Source of the DNA: Candidatus Jettenia ecosi
GTDB lineage: Bacteria > Planctomycetota > Brocadiia > Brocadiales > Brocadiaceae
Length of the DNA: 64,000 nt
Direction of reading: 5' to 3'
NCBI GenBank assembly: GCA_005524015.1
Contig: SULG01000008.1
Location: 1-64,000, forward strand
The position numbers and the translations under genes are program-made. Of the stretch, positions 51,182-64,000 are shown piece after piece (within the stretch, counting starts at the first letter, position 1; every line of letters starts with the position of its first letter). The notes beneath the pieces are model-generated. The model had not been told where the DNA came from. It made no database searches and saw only the letters and a list, made by a program, of their open reading frames with translations.

Positions 51182-53843
51182 TCTGCTTCCATCCAGTTTT
51201 TTCCGGTTTTTATGTTTACCTTGATCGGAACGTTCAACGTAACCGCATTACTCATTTCCTCCTGGATCATGGAACGTGTTAATGTTAAGGCATTCTCTTT
51301 TACCTCGAAGAGTAGTTCATCATGTATTTGAAGTAGCATCTTTGCTTCATATCCACCGCGTATTAATTTGGTGTGAATTTTATTCATAGCAACTTTTATG
51401 AGATCGGCTGCAGAGCCCTGGATGATCGTATTAACAGCAATGCGCTCTGCAAGGTTCCTTCGTTTTTTATTTTCAGAATTGAGGTCAGGTATAGATCGTT
51501 TTCTGTTAAAGAGTGTTTTTACGTATCCGCAACTCCTTGCTTTTTCTAAGACCGTATCTTTAAACCGCTTGACACCGTGATACAGACTAAAATAGGCGTT
51601 AATAAAATCATGAGCATCTTTTAAGGATAACCCTGTATCTCTGGAAAGCCCATACTCATTGAGTCCATAAATAATTCCAAAATTAATTGCCTTCGCATTT
51701 CTTCTCATTTCCGATGTTACTTGTTCTATCGGGATACCACAAATGGCTGATGCAACAGATACATGGATATCCTTATCCTGCTGGAATGCTGTCACCAACG
51801 CTGTATCATCAGAAAAGTGTGCGAGTATACGTAATTCAATTTGTGAATAATCAGCGGATAAAAATACACTGTCCTTTTCGCAAGGGATAAAAGCACTTCG
51901 AATCTGCCTTCCAATATCTGCCCGAATTGGAATATTTTGAAGATTCGGTTCACTACTACTCAGTCGTCCGGTAGCTGTTACCGTTTGATTAAATGTTGTA
52001 TGTACTCGACCGGTAGTTTCATGTATCATATTTGGCAAGGCGTCAACATAGGTATTCTTTAGCTTTATAAGTTGCCTGTATTCCAGCACTAATTTAGGTA
52101 ATGGATGATGCCAGGCAAGCGTGGTAAGTACATTTGCGTCAGTTGATAAACCAGTCTTTGTACGCCTTAATTGTGGTAATTCAAGCTTCTCAAAGAGAAT
52201 TTCACTCAATTGTTTGGGAGATCCAATATTGAACTCCTGATTGGCAGAAGTATAAATTTCTTTTTCGAATTGCTGTAACCTCGTAGTTAAACTATCAGAC
52301 ATCTTGTGTAAGATAGCAGCATCTACACATATCCCGTTCCATTCCATATTGGCTAAAGCGTAAATTAAAGGAATTTCTACCATTTGGAATAAATGCCATA
52401 ACCCTTGTTTTTTGAGAAGAGGTTCCATGAGGTTAGCCAGCCGGAATGTAACATCAGCATCCTGACAGGCATATTGGCAGACCTTATTAATATCTACCTG
52501 GTCCATAGTAATTTGTTCTTTCCCAAGACCAATTAATTCCGAGATGCTTATTGTCTTATAAGATAAATATTCCAATGCGATATCATCCAGATTGTGATTT
52601 CTTTTAATAGGATTAAGAAGGTATGAGGCAATCATGGAGTCGAATACTATTCCCTGCAATAGAATAGTATTATTTTTGAGTACCAGGAGATCATATTTAA
52701 TATTTTGTCCGACTTTCTTAATGTTTTCATCTTCTAAAATGGTTCGGATTTTGGGAAGTACAGTACCAGGATTCAAACATTCAATTCCTTCTGGCCCCAT
52801 GAAAGGTATATAATATGCCTCTTTTGGCTGCCAGGAGAATGAAATACCTACGATGTGCGCTTTAAGAGGATTGATATTGGTTGTCTCCAAATCTACAGCA
52901 AATATCCTTTGTTTTATCAATTGATCAAAAAATTCATCAAACCTTTCAGGGGTATTTATGAGTTTGTAGTGTGTTTCCTCGGTTTTTGCCGTTGCAACCA
53001 TATCCGTCAGAAGTGAATTAAATCCAAACTTCATAAACAATTTTTTTAGTTTTGTATTTTCAATGTTATGAAACTTACAAGTATCCATATTGATTTGAAG
53101 AGGGATATTACTATGAAGTCTGATAAGATTTTGAGAAAGCCTGGCTTGGTCTGTAAATAATCTTAAATTCTCTTGCCTCTTCTTTCCGGATATATGGTCG
53201 ACATTGGCAAGGATAGATTCTAAGGATCCCCATTTTTGGATAAGTTCTAATGCTGTTTTGTTGCCAATACCGGGCACTCCAGGTACATTATCTACTACAT
53301 CTCCTGAAAGAGCCAGAACATCCACTACCTGATCTGGACGTATACCTTTTTCTTTAAGGAGAACCTCCTGGTCAATCATTATGTTTTTTTTATATTAAAT
53401 ATTCTTACCTGTGGGCTTAATAATTGTTCCATGTCTTTATCTGAAGTTACTATAACAATTTCGACAGGTTTATCGGACAGCTTTTGTACAAGAGAGCTAA
53501 TTATATCATCCGCCTCATATCCTTTAGCAGCGTAAATAGGTATATGATATGCTCTGATTATCTGATAAATTAAAGGAATTTGTATCTGTAATTCATCGGG
53601 TGTCGGTTTACGGTTTGCTTTATACTCACGATAACTCATGTGTCTGTGAGTAATCCACTTTGTATCAAAGACCGCAACTATATATTCAGGGCGATGCTCC
53701 CTAAGTAACTTTTGTAGTATCCTGGTGAATCCATATACTGCATTTACCGGTTTTCTATCAGGAGTTGTAAGCTTTGCCGTAATAGCATAATAAGCTTGAT
53801 AGCAATGTGAATGTCCATCTATGATAAAGAATCGCTCTGGCAT
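51178..53843 (-). CDS. polA: DNA polymerase I, with a one-base frame break
   Basis: The intact gene codes for about 888 residues with a 5' nuclease, a 3'-5' exonuclease (FAVDLETTNINP with intact Asp-Glu) and a polymerase domain (RNAKAINFGIIYGLN, LLQIHDELLFEV). The first 154 codons (53843-53379) hold the nuclease start, including KGYEADDIIS and VTSDKDMEQLL, and stop after IKKT. The rest resumes in another frame as IMIDQEVLLKEKGI. The switch lies in a run of eight A (T at 53384-53391 on the plus strand) and needs a -1 shift; one more A would give a seamless RIFNIKKNIMIDQ. I annotate one gene and treat a homopolymer error as likeliest. Confidence 0.92.
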
Positions 53844-56776: not shown

Positions 56777-57589
56777 ATGGACAATAATTTGAATTTAGTA
56801 TTTGGGAAAAAATGCTTTTCTATTTCCTTTTTAGATAGGGAAATGGAGGAGGCAATGAAGGGATGTATTTATCTCTCAAAGACCACACGAAAGCATGATT
56901 ATTTGTTTAAAATAGGATATCAAGATAATGGAGATATGATTAAAGATTGCAAATTTCTTTATTTTAAAGGAGAAAAATGGTGTAACTATATTTCTAAAGA
57001 TGGTGAGATTCAGATACTTTTTCCAAAGAATGATACTTTTTCAAATCCCATACGTATCCTTGCATTTTTATATAGTGCATTTTATAAATTGGGGCAAATT
57101 GATGGAAGAAAAGATAATAGCTTTTTGATTCATGCGGCAGGTTTACTAAGGCAGGGAAAGGGCTTTATCTTTACTGGAGAATCCGGAGCAGGCAAGACTA
57201 CTGTTTCAAAGTTATCTTCTCCTGAGGCAGAAATTCTTTCTGATGAATCAATTGTAGTATCTGAAGATCATAGGAATTATTGGATATCACAAGGGCCGAT
57301 AAGGACTGAAATAACAACGTTAAATGATACAATGGTAAATCTTTGTGCTATTTTTATCTTAGTACAAGACAAGGTAAACTCATTAAGAAGGTTAAACGGG
57401 GCAGAGATGGGCCATAAACTCATGGATAATATTATTTATGTAAATCTTTCTGCAGGTATTAGGCGGGTAGATTTCCTTGCAGAAAAATTGAGATTTGTTA
57501 ATGCTATCAGTAATTGTGTACCTGTATATGAATTAAGATTTACTAAAGATAAAACTTTTTGGAAAGAAATTGAACGTATAGGCCTTTAA
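56777..57589 (+). CDS. HPr-kinase-like ATPase of a peptide-modification cassette
   Basis: This 270-residue protein has a Walker A motif FTGESGAGKTT (around 133-142) and the acidic ILSDESIVV segment (Asp156, Glu157), arranged as in the C-terminal domain of HPr kinase. It lacks the HPrK N-terminal domain and is not next to HPr or PTS genes. Relatives occur with PqqD-type proteins, and in some lasso-peptide clusters (paeninodin type) such a kinase phosphorylates the C-terminal Ser of the precursor. The candidate precursor in this cluster ends in Ser, which makes that role attractive but unproven. The first 110 residues match nothing I recognise. Confidence 0.8.
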   Translation: MDNNLNLVFGKKCFSISFLDREMEEAMKGCIYLSKTTRKHDYLFKIGYQDNGDMIKDCKFLYFKGEKWCNYISKDGEIQILFPKNDTFSNPIRILAFLYSAFYKLGQIDGRKDNSFLIHAAGLLRQGKGFIFTGESGAGKTTVSKLSSPEAEILSDESIVVSEDHRNYWISQGPIRTEITTLNDTMVNLCAIFILVQDKVNSLRRLNGAEMGHKLMDNIIYVNLSAGIRRVDFLAEKLRFVNAISNCVPVYELRFTKDKTFWKEIERIGL

Positions 57590-57656
57590 GAAGGATAGCA
57601 TTTTAATGGTTTAAGTAATCGGAAATAAATCTCTCTTTAATTCTAAGGAATATTCT

Positions 57657-57935
57657 ATGATTGTGAAAAGTAAATTTCCCTGTCGTGATGAGCAATGTAT
57701 GTGGCGGGTTGTAGAGAACGAAGCTATTATCTTCTCTGAAGAAGGGCAATGGCTTCATCAATTAAATGATATGGGAACTGAAATTTGGAGTATGTGTGAT
57801 GGGACATTAAATTTTGCTGAAATCACTGAGAAAATATGTGATAAGTTCGATGTTGAAAGAGAAGTAGCCGAGAAGGATCTCCAATCCTTTATTGATGAAC
57901 TTTCTAAAAAAGCACTAATTACGTTAAAAGAATAA
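57657..57935 (+). CDS. PqqD-family peptide chaperone (RiPP recognition element)
   Basis: This 92-residue protein is a winged-helix PqqD domain: a beta-hairpin (VVENEAIIFSEEGQWLHQLN), then NDMGTEIWSMCDGTLNFAEITEKI and a second helix pair. PqqD domains bind the leader of a peptide and present it to a modifying enzyme, usually a radical SAM protein. One is encoded just downstream. AAGGA precedes the ATG. It lies 67 bases after the kinase-like gene. Confidence 0.85.
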   Translation: MIVKSKFPCRDEQCMWRVVENEAIIFSEEGQWLHQLNDMGTEIWSMCDGTLNFAEITEKICDKFDVEREVAEKDLQSFIDELSKKALITLKE

Positions 57936-58049
57936 GGAATTATTTATAATGAAGTGTATGAAAAAGATACTAAGAAGTTTGGTTTTCGGTAAATATTTTT
58001 AATTTGGTGTACTTTAATGGCTAAATAATTACAAAGAGTAGGATACAAT

Positions 58050-59112
58050 ATGCAAGAAAACATGATAGATCAAATTCAGCAAAAATATTTTGATCGTAAT
58101 CTTCCCTGGATAGTTCATTGGGAGCTAGTCTACGGATGTAATTTAAAATGCCAGCATTGTTATACCTTTCATGAGGAAAGAAAGAACTATCTCTCTCTAC
58201 CCCAAATGGCAAAAATAATCCAGCAGTTAAAGGAGATGGGAACAGTGTTTTTGACATTGTCCGGAGGAGAACCTTTTGTTAGAGATGATATTATGGATAT
58301 CATCGAGATGGTGCGTAGGGAATTTTTTTGTGATCATCCTTTCAAATGCTACATTAATTGATTCTTTCAAGGCGAAAAGATTGAAAGAGCTTAATGTAAC
58401 TCAAGTAGAAGTAAGCCTTTATGCTATGGATGAGAAGATCCATGATTCGATAACAGGCATAAAAGGGTCGCATGTGCAAACAATGGAGGGAATACATCGT
58501 TTAAAGGAAGAAGGGGTGAGCGTAAGGATAAAATGCACTATAATGGAACAGAACTACGCAGAATATACTAAAATAGGAGAGTTTGCAAAAAAGTTAGGAA
58601 TTCGTTTTTCTTCAAGTCCTGTTGTAAGCCCTCGGTTAGATGGGTCTCAGGATACCTATGAATATTGTACCGACCCGGAAAATCTTCGATCTTATTTTTT
58701 ACAATGGGGAAAAGAGAATAAAGAAAAATATAAAGATTTTAAAGAATCGCCTTCTGTTCCTTTAGATAAATCATTTATTTGTAGCGCTGGCCGTACGTCT
58801 TGTGCCATAACACCTGATGGATACCTTAAACCTTGTACAATGCTTCCAGTAAAATTGGGAAACTTACTTGAGAAGAGCTTTAAAGAATTATGGCAAGTTA
58901 AACCAAAAAGACTTGTAAAAGATATCAGAGATGCTAAGATGAGCGACTTTTCTAGTTGTAAGGAATGCAAATGGAATCATTTATGTTCACCGTGTCCAGG
59001 CGTAAATTACCTTGAGACTGGTAATATGTTTACTGTGGCTGAAGGATATTGCAATAAGGTGAAATCTATCATGAATGAATTAGATATAGAAAGTAACGTA
59101 GGGAAACATTGA
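58050..59112 (+). CDS. Radical SAM/SPASM peptide-modifying enzyme, with a one-base frame break
   Basis: The intact protein would have about 353 residues. CNLKCQHC (Cys30, Cys34, Cys37) binds the [4Fe-4S] cluster that cleaves SAM, followed by LTLSGGEPFV. The C-terminal SPASM region has the Cys pattern CSAGRTSC, then KPCTM, CKECKWNHLCSPC and a last YC, for further clusters. Such enzymes build thioether or carbon bonds in ribosomal peptides. The frame breaks in a T7 run at 58323-58329; deleting one T joins RREFF to VIILSNATLID without a gap. The first frame stops at 58361 and the second runs to 59112. It sits between the PqqD gene and the candidate precursor. Confidence 0.87.
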
Positions 59113-59161
59113 TCATAACCAGACCGGAAGAATCTTATCGAAATTTAATGATAGATCATTT

Positions 59162-59184
59162 TTAACGGAAAAATGATCACACGC
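59162..59184. repeat. Left arm of the inverted repeat flanking the precursor gene
   Basis: TTAACGGAAAAATGATCACACGC is inverted relative to 59464-59486, matching at 21 of 23 positions (differences are one base at the end and one in the T-run). The left arm also folds on itself with bases just upstream (GATCATTTTT / AAAAATGATC). Confidence 0.8.
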
Positions 59185-59251
59185 AATAAGTAATTGAAAT
59201 ACTTATTAAGCCTGATAGTGGTTATAAAAGCGCCTAGAAAGGAGCGAAAAT

Positions 59252-59416
59252 ATGGAGAATTTAAAAGTATCAACAAAGCAAAGTTACAAGAAACCTTCGA
59301 TTAAGTCTGAGCAATTAGAGATGAATGTATTGGCAAATCATGGTGCTACATGTTGTTGTTCTGGAAAATCACAGAGTAGCTTTATTCAAAACGCTGTAAG
59401 CAACTGGGTAAGCTAA
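59252..59416 (+). CDS. Candidate RiPP precursor peptide (54 residues)
   Basis: This small gene was not called before because of its size. AAGGAG lies seven bases before the ATG, the best ribosome binding site of the cluster. The product starts MENLKVSTKQSYKKPSIK, is charged and leader-like, and has YxxPxI, as in leaders bound by PqqD-type domains. The second half reads VLANHGATCCCSGK, then QSSFIQNAVSNWVS. Three consecutive Cys suit thioether formation by the adjacent radical SAM enzyme, and the C-terminal Ser suits a kinase. No homologue is known to me, so the role rests on context. Its place inside an inverted repeat is unusual. Confidence 0.7.
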   Translation: MENLKVSTKQSYKKPSIKSEQLEMNVLANHGATCCCSGKSQSSFIQNAVSNWVS

Positions 59417-59463
59417 CTTTTAGCCATTATTCGGGCGATAAGTGTTTTGGTTAGTTTTTATTG

Positions 59464-59486
59464 ACGTGTGATCATTTTTTCGTTAA
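59464..59486. repeat. Right arm of the inverted repeat flanking the precursor gene
   Basis: ACGTGTGATCATTTTTTCGTTAA, inverted partner of 59162-59184. It starts 47 bases after the stop of the candidate precursor and could also act as its terminator or as an operator. Confidence 0.8.
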
Positions 59487-59635
59487 GTGAGAAATTCCGT
59501 TAAAGTAGTAAATTTAGAGATAATCGTAGTAGTATTATATATCTGTAAGATAGCATTCCTAAGATAATCTTTCGTGCAAGTTTGTGTTGATAATCTAGCA
59601 TATATCCAAATACCCTACTTAGCAATTTTCACATC

Positions 59636-60223
59636 ATGGACTTACAAGAAAAATTATTGTATGAATTAGGTGAAGAGTACATAAAAGAAAAAGGAAAGAT
59701 GTGGATGAAAGTGGTTTCTCCTAGCATGATGCCTTTAATCCATATTGGTGATAAAGTATTGGTTAAATCGATCGAATGTGAGGCAGTAAATACAGGAGAT
59801 ATTATCATTTTTAAAGGGAAAGATATTCCGTTTATTACTCACAGGATAATAAGAAAGCGAAAGATAAATGGTGAGTTGCATTTTTTTGAAAAAGGTGATA
59901 GAAACGTATCCGGTACATGGATACATAAAAAATCTATTATAGCAAGGGTGATTGCTATAAAAAAAAGAGATAATAGTATTATCATGTTAAACGAAACGAA
60001 AAGGATGAGAATTATTAATAAGCTTTTTACTGTATATCAATTAAATGCTTATATATTCGAAAGGATAATAAAGGTTTTTAAGGATTGGGTTAAAGGCTAT
60101 AAAGTCTTAAATTTCCTTAGAAAACCGTATCGATATTCCTACAAGATTACTACAAGAGGGCAAAATCTTTGTAAAAAGTTATTGGTTCTCATACTTATTA
60201 AAGGAATGAGATTGTATGGGTAA
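59636..60223 (+). CDS. Sec11-type (Ser/His) signal peptidase, S26B family
   Basis: This 195-residue protein carries the S26 signature around Ser30 (VVSPSMMPLIHIGDKVLV). The second catalytic position is a His, in FITHRIIRKR (His69), as in archaeal and ER signal peptidases and SipW, rather than the Lys of usual bacterial enzymes. An Asp follows in FEKGDRN. There is no clear N-terminal membrane helix; the C-terminal 70 residues are basic, with a hydrophobic end (LVLILIKGMRLYG). The next gene, a Wza-type exporter, overlaps its end by 8 bases. It is a candidate for removing the precursor leader, or for processing exported proteins of the exopolysaccharide locus. Confidence 0.82.
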   Translation: MDLQEKLLYELGEEYIKEKGKMWMKVVSPSMMPLIHIGDKVLVKSIECEAVNTGDIIIFKGKDIPFITHRIIRKRKINGELHFFEKGDRNVSGTWIHKKSIIARVIAIKKRDNSIIMLNETKRMRIINKLFTVYQLNAYIFERIIKVFKDWVKGYKVLNFLRKPYRYSYKITTRGQNLCKKLLVLILIKGMRLYG

Positions 60224-61067
60224 TATATTTTCTATAAGAATCTTACGTGTAATTTTCAATTTTATAGGTTTGTTTTATCTGCTATCTTTAAGTCTGTATG
60301 CTGAAAATCTTCCCGATAAGGAATATATTATAGGTCCTGAGGATATCCTTGAAATTAAGGTTTGGGATAATGAAGATTTAAATAGTATTGTTGAAGTCTC
60401 ACAGGAAGGGACTTTTACCTTCCTTCTTATTGGAAGAGTCCAGGCAAATGGCCGGTCGGTCTTTGAGCTTGAAGACATTATTGAGAAGAAACTGGCTGAT
60501 GGTTACCTCGTTTCACCTCAGGTAACTATTACGTTAAAAGAATATAACAGCCGAAAGGTATTCGTCCTCGGTGAAGTAAATAAACCAGGAAGTTATCCTT
60601 TAAAAGGGAATACCCATATATTAGGGCTGATATCACAAGCTGGAGGTGTTACAGCCAGCGCAGGGCAAACAGTTACTATCGTGCGCCCCAGGTCGCTCCA
60701 CCAAAGTGGAAAGATTGGTTCCAGGGAAGGTAAAGAAAACGAGATTATTACACTTGATTTAGGCGATTTTGATACTAACAGTAAGTATGATACCTTTGTT
60801 GTTGCTAATGGCGACTCCATTTACATTAACCGAGCACCACGAGTTTTTGTAATAGGAGAAGTCCAAAGTCCAGGTGAGTTGAAATGGGAAAGAGGATTGA
60901 CAATCCGCCAAGCCATATCTCTTGCAGGAGGGTCTACTGAAAAGGCATCGCCTAAACGCGTAATAGTCATTCGTATGAAAAGTGGTGTGGAAAAAGAGCT
61001 TAAACCAAAAATGGATGAATTTGTATTGCCGGGTGACATTATTAAGGTTCCTGGACGTTATTTCTAA
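60216..61067 (+). CDS. Wza-type polysaccharide export protein
   Basis: This 283-residue exported protein has an N-terminal hydrophobic segment (about residues 8-29) and a polysaccharide export domain (YIIGPEDILEIKVWDNEDL, the ITLKEYNSRKVFVLGEV block), followed by SLBB domains (GEVQSPGELKWERGLTIRQAI). Such proteins form the outer-membrane channel for exopolysaccharide. There is no lipobox Cys; processing at SLYA is more likely. It overlaps the peptidase gene and is followed by the Wzc-type kinase, forming an export operon. Confidence 0.88.
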   Translation: MGNIFSIRILRVIFNFIGLFYLLSLSLYAENLPDKEYIIGPEDILEIKVWDNEDLNSIVEVSQEGTFTFLLIGRVQANGRSVFELEDIIEKKLADGYLVSPQVTITLKEYNSRKVFVLGEVNKPGSYPLKGNTHILGLISQAGGVTASAGQTVTIVRPRSLHQSGKIGSREGKENEIITLDLGDFDTNSKYDTFVVANGDSIYINRAPRVFVIGEVQSPGELKWERGLTIRQAISLAGGSTEKASPKRVIVIRMKSGVEKELKPKMDEFVLPGDIIKVPGRYF

Positions 61068-61092: not shown

Positions 61093-63669
61093 GTGGATAA
61101 AAAAATGAGCCTTGGATTTGTGCCAGACCATATATCATTTTCACGGCAAGTACATCTAATAGACTATCTTAATATCATCAGAAAACGTAAATGGGTAGTC
61201 ATTGTTTTCTTTTTGGTTGTGGTTTCTATTGTTAGTTACATATCATTTTCTACCACACCTGTCTATAAAGCCACTGCACAGATCATTATTGAACAGAGGT
61301 CTCCTTTTGTTGATAAGATAACGGGAGTTATGAATGTAGATCCTAATAATAGGGACGATTACCAAACGCAATATAATTTATTAATGAGTAGAAGCCTTGC
61401 AAAAAATGTTATCGAAGATTTAAAATTATGGAAGGAATTTGGTATCGATGAAATTCAAAATCCAAATTCTTCAACTTTACCTGTCGGTGTATCTCGCGAT
61501 TCTTTGATTTCATCAAGCATTGATACTTCTGCCTTAAATATTCCGGTATCAGGGGCATCAGCTACACCCTATCCAACCTGGATTGTAGATTGGTATTTAT
61601 CAAAGCTTGAGATTGTGCCTCTTCGAGAAACACATCTGGTCTATATTAGCTTCTTAAACGAATCACCTGAAAAGGCTGCACGTATAGCCAATGCGCATGT
61701 CCAGGCATTTATCGTAAGAACCGTTCAGGAACAGCGTTCATTCTCACAGCAAGCGATAGATTGGCTTAAGGCACAGATTCGAGGGCAAAAAATTAAAGTA
61801 GGAACATCCCAGCGTGCAGTTTATGAATACAAATATGAGCAACTTGAGTCATTTTCTATCGACGACAAAAATATTTTTTCATTACCGGAAATTATGCAAA
61901 GTCCTGTTATTCAAGATCTTCGTGCTAAATTAGCAGAGCTTAAGGCCAGGAAATTAGAGATGATTACCAAGTACGGTCCTAAGCATCCAAAGATGATTGA
62001 GATTAATTCCAGTATTGAGAAATTAGAGCAGGGAATTATTGACGAGGTGCAAACGGTAAGGAAGACAATCAAAGCAGAATTAGACCGGATTGTAGCTCTT
62101 GAAAAGATCGTTCAGCAAAAAGGGGCTGTAGCTTATAACGAAAAGGCTATTAACTATGATATGTTGTCTCTGGATGCTGAAAGTGATCAAGAGATGTATG
62201 ATATTCTGCTCAAGCAGGCAAAGGAGATTAGTCTTACCGGCAATATGGAGAAGAACGACATCCGGGTTGTGGATGAGGCTGAGGTGCCACTTTTTCCTGT
62301 TAAGCCGAAGATATTTTTAAATATCTTCGTATCTGCAGTGCTGGGTTTGACATTTGGTGTAGGGCTTGCTTTCTTCCTCGAGTATATGGATAAAACGGTG
62401 AGAACCCCTGAAGATATCGCACAACGGCTTGGTTTACCAATGCTTGGGATGATACCTTATGATAAATCCTTAAAAAAAGGCAAAGTTCTCGCTTTGCAAG
62501 GTAGTGAATCTCATCGCAATCAAAATAAACTTAAAGGCGTTTATACCCAATATGATGTTTCGGGAAGTTTTGTTACGAGATTACCACTGATGCAAGCAGG
62601 AATGTCTGGTCAGGTGCTTTTGATAGAAAGTACAACTAGTGGTGAAGGTAAAACTACTGTTTTGGCAAAATCAGCAATAAGTCTGGCAAGGGGTGGACTA
62701 CGTGTGCTTATGGTAGATGCTGATGTGCAAAGACCATCATTGCATCATTTATTTGGTTTAAAGAATGATGAAGAAAATGGATTGATTAATGCGATGACCC
62801 GAGTTCTGTTACAGGAAATACGGCAGGGCTCTTTAAATAAGTATAGTGTGAGTGATCTTTTTTCTCTTCTTGCCCTTAAAAAACAAAGTGGGCAACTTGT
62901 CATTACTAATGATTCTCAAACTATGACTGCTATCTTTGAGAACGGTTGCCTCATTCACATCCAGAGTCAGGATATCCCTTTTGCTAATCGTTTAGGAACC
63001 ATGCTGCTACGGGGTGGTTTTATTACAGAAAGCCAGTTAAAAGATGCTATAGAGAGAAATCATCGTACTGGACAACCATTAGGATATATCCTTATTAATG
63101 CCGGATATATTAATCAAGCTCAATTACAAGGACCTTTAAAGTTGCAAATGGAGGAACACCTCCAGAAACTTTTTAGTTGGAAACAAGGTACTTTTGTTTT
63201 TGAACCAGGCAGTGTAGAGAGATACGAAGATAAAAGAATTTATTTTGCAGAGGATTATACATCAATTATCAATCGTTTAAGCCGTATATCAGGAAGTCGC
63301 TTACTGGAAAGTGAGGTCCTCTCTCATGTGAAACCTGTTAACGAACCAAATTTATCACTCTTGCCTGCGGGCATAGGGGATACAAGACCTGATGGTCCGC
63401 TCTATTTTACCCTTCTCTCAAAATTCTTAACTCTCCTGAAACAAAGGTACGATGTAGTCCTTGTGGATGCCCCGCCTTTATTAGATTTTATGAACGGCGT
63501 AACGCCTTTACTCTCATTAGTTGACGGTGTAATTTTTATCGTTAAATCAGGACATGTATCTATCGATTATATCAATAAGGCCACTAGCTGCATAAAAGAT
63601 GCAAAAACTAATATCATTGGTGCTATCCTGAATCAAGCAAAAATAAAACAAGGGTATTATTATAAATGA
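61093..63669 (+). CDS. Wzc-type chain-length/tyrosine kinase with DUF4388 insertion
   Basis: This 858-residue inner-membrane protein controls exopolysaccharide chain length. It has a Wzz domain with helices near 33-52 and 410-430 and a C-terminal P-loop kinase: SGEGKTT (516-522), VDADVQRPSLHHLFG, and VVLVDAPPLLD near 788-798. Residues about 565-740 do not fit the kinase: they are a DUF4388-like sensor domain (LFSLLALKKQSGQLVITN, GCLIHIQS) followed by an MshEN/GspE-N-like segment (LGYILINAGYINQAQL). This block sits between Walker A' and Walker B. The tail KQGYYYK is the Tyr cluster for autophosphorylation. Start GTG 61093 or ATG 61105. Confidence 0.88.
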   Translation: MDKKMSLGFVPDHISFSRQVHLIDYLNIIRKRKWVVIVFFLVVVSIVSYISFSTTPVYKATAQIIIEQRSPFVDKITGVMNVDPNNRDDYQTQYNLLMSRSLAKNVIEDLKLWKEFGIDEIQNPNSSTLPVGVSRDSLISSSIDTSALNIPVSGASATPYPTWIVDWYLSKLEIVPLRETHLVYISFLNESPEKAARIANAHVQAFIVRTVQEQRSFSQQAIDWLKAQIRGQKIKVGTSQRAVYEYKYEQLESFSIDDKNIFSLPEIMQSPVIQDLRAKLAELKARKLEMITKYGPKHPKMIEINSSIEKLEQGIIDEVQTVRKTIKAELDRIVALEKIVQQKGAVAYNEKAINYDMLSLDAESDQEMYDILLKQAKEISLTGNMEKNDIRVVDEAEVPLFPVKPKIFLNIFVSAVLGLTFGVGLAFFLEYMDKTVRTPEDIAQRLGLPMLGMIPYDKSLKKGKVLALQGSESHRNQNKLKGVYTQYDVSGSFVTRLPLMQAGMSGQVLLIESTTSGEGKTTVLAKSAISLARGGLRVLMVDADVQRPSLHHLFGLKNDEENGLINAMTRVLLQEIRQGSLNKYSVSDLFSLLALKKQSGQLVITNDSQTMTAIFENGCLIHIQSQDIPFANRLGTMLLRGGFITESQLKDAIERNHRTGQPLGYILINAGYINQAQLQGPLKLQMEEHLQKLFSWKQGTFVFEPGSVERYEDKRIYFAEDYTSIINRLSRISGSRLLESEVLSHVKPVNEPNLSLLPAGIGDTRPDGPLYFTLLSKFLTLLKQRYDVVLVDAPPLLDFMNGVTPLLSLVDGVIFIVKSGHVSIDYINKATSCIKDAKTNIIGAILNQAKIKQGYYYK

Positions 63670-63773: not shown

Positions 63774-64000
63774 TTGCCTTACTGTATAGAGACATATAAT
63801 CTTACAAAAAGATATCCAGTACTAAAAGGATATGGCGATATACTCTTGCATCCTTTTAGAAAGAAGGATATTACAGCGCTTAATAATGTAAACATTCAGA
63901 TAAAAAAGAATGAATTGTTTGGTCTTCTGGGTCCAAATGGCGCGGGAAAAACTACCCTGATAAAGATCCTTTGCACACTGGTTCTTCCTACATCAGGAAG
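63774..64000 (+). CDS. ABC transporter ATP-binding protein, 5' part
   Basis: Only the first 75 codons are in the window. They encode [12 protein letters not shown], a spacer, then [29 protein letters not shown] with an intact Walker A motif. An in-frame TAG at 63762-63764 limits the start; the TTG at 63774 is the first usable codon, as no ATG or GTG follows soon. The YGDILLHP segment before the ABC core is typical of exporters of the ABC-2 type. In this position it could export the exopolysaccharide or the candidate peptide. Confidence 0.85.

Follow-up and report, generated by a model that had tools for sequence, protein, structure and literature searches.

A candidate phosphopeptide RiPP cassette with a radical-SAM/SPASM enzyme next to polysaccharide export genes of Candidatus Jettenia ecosi

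Linear polyphosphorylated peptides (LPPs), described in 2026 as restricted to Bacillota, carry the full leader motif YxxPxVLxHQxIxFETxxS (PMC13381572). The leader is removed by an archaeal-type signal peptidase (LppS) in a manner dependent on a RiPP recognition element (RRE); residues N33 and D70 of LppB touch the Pro and Tyr of the YxxP leader, and the kinase LppK phosphorylates the peptide at an internal residue, Ser3, not at the C terminus (PMC13381572). In paeninodin the C-terminal Ser is phosphorylated by PadeK (PMC9266682).

The window analysed here is the whole stretch of 64,000 nucleotides from Candidatus Jettenia ecosi (contig SULG01000008.1, positions 1 to 64,000, forward strand); its relevant features are collected in Table 1. 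A preliminary description had placed a kinase, a PqqD domain, a radical-SAM (rSAM)/SPASM enzyme, a 54-codon peptide and a signal peptidase on one strand before wza-wzc, and the coordinates and strand of these genes were as claimed (all lie on the plus strand). The break in the rSAM gene of this sequence had been overlooked, as had the resemblance to LPP and a PF14907 nucleotidyltransferase, which in congeners lies further down the locus. A scan for promoters and terminators returned sites no commoner than in shuffled sequence. The ATPase domain of the Wzc-type protein contains DUF4388 and a motif for c-di-GMP binding that is related to MshE (NF053729, 50 bits versus 38).

Table 1. Features of the cassette and its immediate context (positions in the window).
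Feature	Position	Strand	Remarks
HprK/PEPCK-fold kinase, 270 aa	56777..57589	+	P-loop GESGAGKT at residue 134; His119, Asp156
PqqD-type RRE, 92 aa	57657..57935	+	Pfam PqqD 1.4e-17
rSAM/SPASM enzyme, 5' part with CxxxCxxC	58050..58361	+	frame lost near 58325
rSAM/SPASM enzyme, 3' part, other frame, with SPASM cysteines	58276..59112	+	
Precursor peptide gene, 54 aa, ending ...NWVS	59252..59416	+	AGGAG ribosome binding site upstream
Putative leader part, residues 1-28, with YKKPSIKSEQLEMNVLA	59252..59335	+	end placed by aligning homologues that have ...ALA|C
Putative core part, residues 29-54, NHGATCCCSGKSQSSFIQNAVSNWVS, C-terminal Ser	59336..59413	+	
Archaeal-type signal peptidase (S26), proposed leader peptidase	59636..60223	+	TIGR02228; Ser30, His69, Asp88
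Wza-type polysaccharide export protein (context)	60216..61067	+	
Wzc-type chain-length determinant/kinase with DUF4388/MshE-like insert (context)	61093..63669	+	
ABC transporter ATPase, start only (context)	63774..64000	+	permease next in congeners

The cassette shares with LPP a discrete RRE and a YxxP leader (a PqqD protein with N37/D74 and a YKKPSI leader, their binding being predicted), an HprK-like kinase (assigned by Foldseek fold and invariant P-loop, with curated HprK-related models below cut-off), an archaeal-type signal peptidase, a nucleotidyltransferase at the locus and a polysaccharide setting. The NTP transferase of the LPP clusters is presumably PF14907. The systems differ in that the window adds an rSAM/SPASM enzyme and a Cys-bearing core, the conserved Ser stands at core position 3 in LPP but at the C terminus here, and an ABC-2 type transporter neighbours the cassette in place of the MsbA-like one. 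Of the full LPP leader motif, YKKPSIKSEQLEMNVLA has only the YxxPx[VI] part in common, and the cassette lies outside Bacillota, the limit set for LPP.

Paeninodin-type lasso peptides (PadeK/ThcoK) have in common with the cassette an HprK-like kinase, a discrete RRE and a conserved C-terminal Ser target (PMC9266682), but the window holds an rSAM enzyme and no lasso cyclase was found in the locus. Assignment as a lasso peptide was rejected: the B2 protein (PF13471) was looked for and not found in the two congeners (G001 and G002) or in the related genus G016, and no macrolactam cyclase was present among the Pfam-scanned locus genes. The window's own genome (G000) has one PF13471 gene, in a second kinase-rSAM-PqqD cassette on contig C30 (L223, 5873-8999), where a Transglut_core3 (lasso B2-like) protein replaces the signal peptidase.

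SynChlorMet (ScmC/D/E/F, NCBIfam) likewise combines a kinase-like protein with PqqD and rSAM/SPASM proteins, but with two rSAMs as against one here. Among named kinase models ScmC comes closest (1.7e-10); all four Scm models nevertheless scored far below cut-off (score/cut-off: ScmC 40.8/125, ScmD 27.4/100, ScmE 68.5/400, ScmF 51.1/400), as did those of GeoRSP (PqqD 50.6/100, rSAM 64.7/400), the window rSAM being scored against curated models in two pieces. The "HPr-rel-A type" label of the preliminary description was not upheld, the model for HprK-related kinase A (TIGR04352) giving 21 bits against a cut-off of 200. Sactipeptide and ranthipeptide systems share the SPASM maturase, the RRE and a Cys-containing core; to our knowledge the classic ones have no kinase. 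Plasmid-borne rSAM hits (∼31 %) were set aside; the example on an E. coli plasmid shows no annotated kinase, PqqD or peptide in its vicinity. A literature search, with most subscription journals and preprints outside its range, found no report joining C-terminal serine, radical SAM, kinase and RiPP (an earlier description is possible) and none naming "SynChlorMet".

Comparison with congeners indicates that the 54-aa peptide is a genuine gene. Its protein is identical in both, in the same cassette, and its DNA (99.4-100 % identical) is far more conserved than the flanking intergenic DNA (83-91 %; neighbouring genes 95-98 %), so it is not a chance reading frame. The earlier proposal that this peptide is the RiPP substrate is supported by the congener identity and by the related genus G016, where two cassettes encode paralogous peptides that share VY[KR]KPxIxS[EK]Q and have different Cys cores. 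Absence of the small gene from the cassettes of relatives had been named as grounds for dropping the proposal; the peptide was found to be kept there. It is likely the cassette's substrate, and a small, modified peptide is very probably the product of the gene set. NCBIfam precursor models gave no match to the window peptide, and a precursor search of plasmids found none.

A precursor profile matched 14 of 392 sampled Planctomycetota genomes. One further genome (G419) holds seven precursors, namely a tandem array of six next to a single rSAM (L060, 10497-11922) and a seventh on another contig (L061, 263-439), with FEQAAL[AS]C leaders and C-terminal Ser. Kinase homologues occur in 50 of the 392 genomes. 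The 14 precursor genomes all have one, though eight of these are circular as evidence of co-occurrence, having been reached through a kinase search or belonging to the window's own genus. The six genomes found by precursor alone all contain the kinase (p∼1e-6), in five of them away from the precursor locus. A profile of the rSAM run against named genomes yielded 80 loci, of which many also encode kinase and PqqD, often together with S26; they come from Elusimicrobia, Omnitrophota, Aminicenantes, Lentisphaerae, Acidobacteria, Nitrospirota, Deltaproteobacteria, Clostridia and others; records from the first seven (Elusimicrobia as Endomicrobia) include cassettes with a YxxP peptide, and at some loci (e.g., L083 and L094) no such peptide was recognised.

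Two kinds of kinase fusion were seen. Proteins of 679 aa joining rSAM and kinase occur in G014 and G015, two further genera of this family (L035, 164-2203; L205, 1465-3504), and the G015 locus also encodes a WxxP peptide with terminal Ser, PqqD, S26 and a PF14907 gene. At five loci (L030-L034, from G017, G030, G011, G009 and G016) the HprK-like kinase makes up the C-terminal end of a long protein, with a CapD-type dehydratase in all four scanned by Pfam; several adjoin wza-wzc.

Small ORFs beside cassette genes were selected by the pattern [KR]..[YF]..P...C, blind to their ends. Ser is the last residue in 26 of these 36 peptides, as against 25 of 288 other small ORFs of the same places (Fisher 2e-16, a value that is overstated since related sequences are not independent events and three or four of the 36 peptides seem spurious). 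Distribution across phyla carries more weight than the p-value. Some precursors end otherwise (those of G016, in GT and NG, and those at L084, L101, L106 and L142). Phosphorylation of the C-terminal Ser, as put forward in the preliminary description, thus gains comparative support and has a precedent in paeninodin (PMC9266682), though not for every precursor; the terminal Ser suggests that the accompanying kinase phosphorylates it.

Residues H119, G134, G139, K140, T142 and D156 of the kinase are invariant in 20 homologues. By its modelled fold the protein is HprK-like (AF2 pLDDT 79.5; Foldseek: PEPCK 6e-8, HPr kinase 4e-6); with TM-scores of ∼0.5 to PEPCK, assignment to the PEPCK/HprK superfamily is fairly secure but assignment to an exact family is not. 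Curated HprK-related models all scored far below cut-off, and sequence comparison with the PDB gave chiefly P-loop matches, so the fold search was used in its place. N37 and D74 of the PqqD protein appear to correspond to N33 and D70 of LppB, with equal 37-residue spacing, when aligned to PDB 9x8z_B, a member of the PqqD family that is presumed to be LppB. The S26 protein scored 67 bits against TIGR02228 (cut-off 51.85) and has the three catalytic residues of Table 1. In G001 and G002 the PF14907 nucleotidyltransferase is encoded ∼9 kb past the peptide, on the same strand; the copy in the window's genome is on contig C10, in synteny with that stretch, and three other cassettes have PF14907 fused to their S26 protein.

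What the sequences show is which genes belong to the cassette, a conserved leader, an enrichment of terminal Ser, the co-occurrence of kinase and precursor, the contact residues of the RRE and the catalytic residues of the peptidase; together these support an RRE-dependent phosphopeptide RiPP pathway. The cassette probably encodes such a pathway of LPP/paeninodin-like type, with an added rSAM maturase and extending beyond Bacillota. We infer the following reactions and their order. The PqqD protein would bind the YKKPSI section of the leader and present the peptide both to the rSAM/SPASM enzyme, which would modify the Cys-bearing core (the thioether of the preliminary description being one conceivable product), and to the HprK-like kinase, which would phosphorylate the C-terminal Ser. 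The archaeal-type signal peptidase would then cut off the leader, with cleavage probably near Ala28, and export would follow, possibly after the PF14907 enzyme had added a nucleotidyl or glycosyl group to the phosphate.

It is unlikely that the kinase mainly serves exopolysaccharide synthesis, for example by sugar or protein phosphorylation tied to a CapD-type dehydratase, with the peptide and rSAM as a secondary addition. Fusion of the kinase to a Polysacc_synt_2 (CapD-like) dehydratase in G016, G011, G009 and G017 (in G030 judged by length and architecture) fits such a role, as does the arrangement in G017 and G030, where wza-wzc adjoin the kinase and PqqD, rSAM and peptide were not found nearby. 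However, the kinase is present in every precursor genome, rSAM-kinase fusions exist, and cassettes of other phyla pair the kinase with PqqD, rSAM and a peptide that mostly ends in Ser. In another reading, which we regard as doubtful, the C-terminal phospho-Ser would be a coupling handle by which the kinase and PF14907 join the rSAM-modified peptide to a sugar, and wza-wzc would export a peptide-tagged or peptide-primed exopolysaccharide; if so, it would be mirrored in sister genera by the fusions of kinase and CapD that adjoin wza-wzc.

The rSAM region (58050-59112) consists of two overlapping frames with the break at a T-run, and the frameshift within the reading frame could mark the cassette as a decaying, non-functional copy. 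In both congeners (L005 and L006) the rSAM is a single open frame, with SPASM-region Cys at 244, 262, 303, 306, 312, 315 and 334 in the intact congener protein examined, and the broken gene is still 96.4-96.5 % identical in DNA to these intact copies. The polA gene of the window is also split, at 53379 (frames of 154 and 733 aa), and forms one 888-aa frame in both congeners. An indel error in this assembly is likelier than decay of the rSAM, since the rSAM is intact in congeners and polA, which is essential and lies 5 kb away, is broken too, a defect hardly tolerable for the organism; sequence error would thus be the simplest reading. The kinase, PqqD and peptide are intact, with dN/dS of ∼0.2 for both kinase and PqqD in the congener comparison, and decay is accordingly very unlikely. 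The rSAM is an optional module, since G009 and G011 lack it though kinase, PqqD and leader-bearing peptide are kept.

That the peptide is a non-secreted cofactor or redox-carrier precursor in the style of PQQ or mycofactocin is most improbable: PqqD and SPASM rSAM proteins also mark those systems and a single peptide is strictly conserved within the genus, but the cores vary highly between cassettes and are multiplied (seven in G419), a leader peptidase and an export/polysaccharide neighbourhood are present, and the PQQ and mycofactocin models scored below cut-off.

An LPP/paeninodin-like pathway in this cassette would widen to many phyla a phosphopeptide RiPP logic reported as confined to Bacillota, and would add a radical-SAM step to it. 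It offers a simple rule for testing: next to an HprK-like kinase, look for a YxxP-leader precursor that ends in Ser. Kinase/PqqD/rSAM cassettes would thereby gain concrete precursors, and the recurring link between RiPP and polysaccharide loci would become testable.
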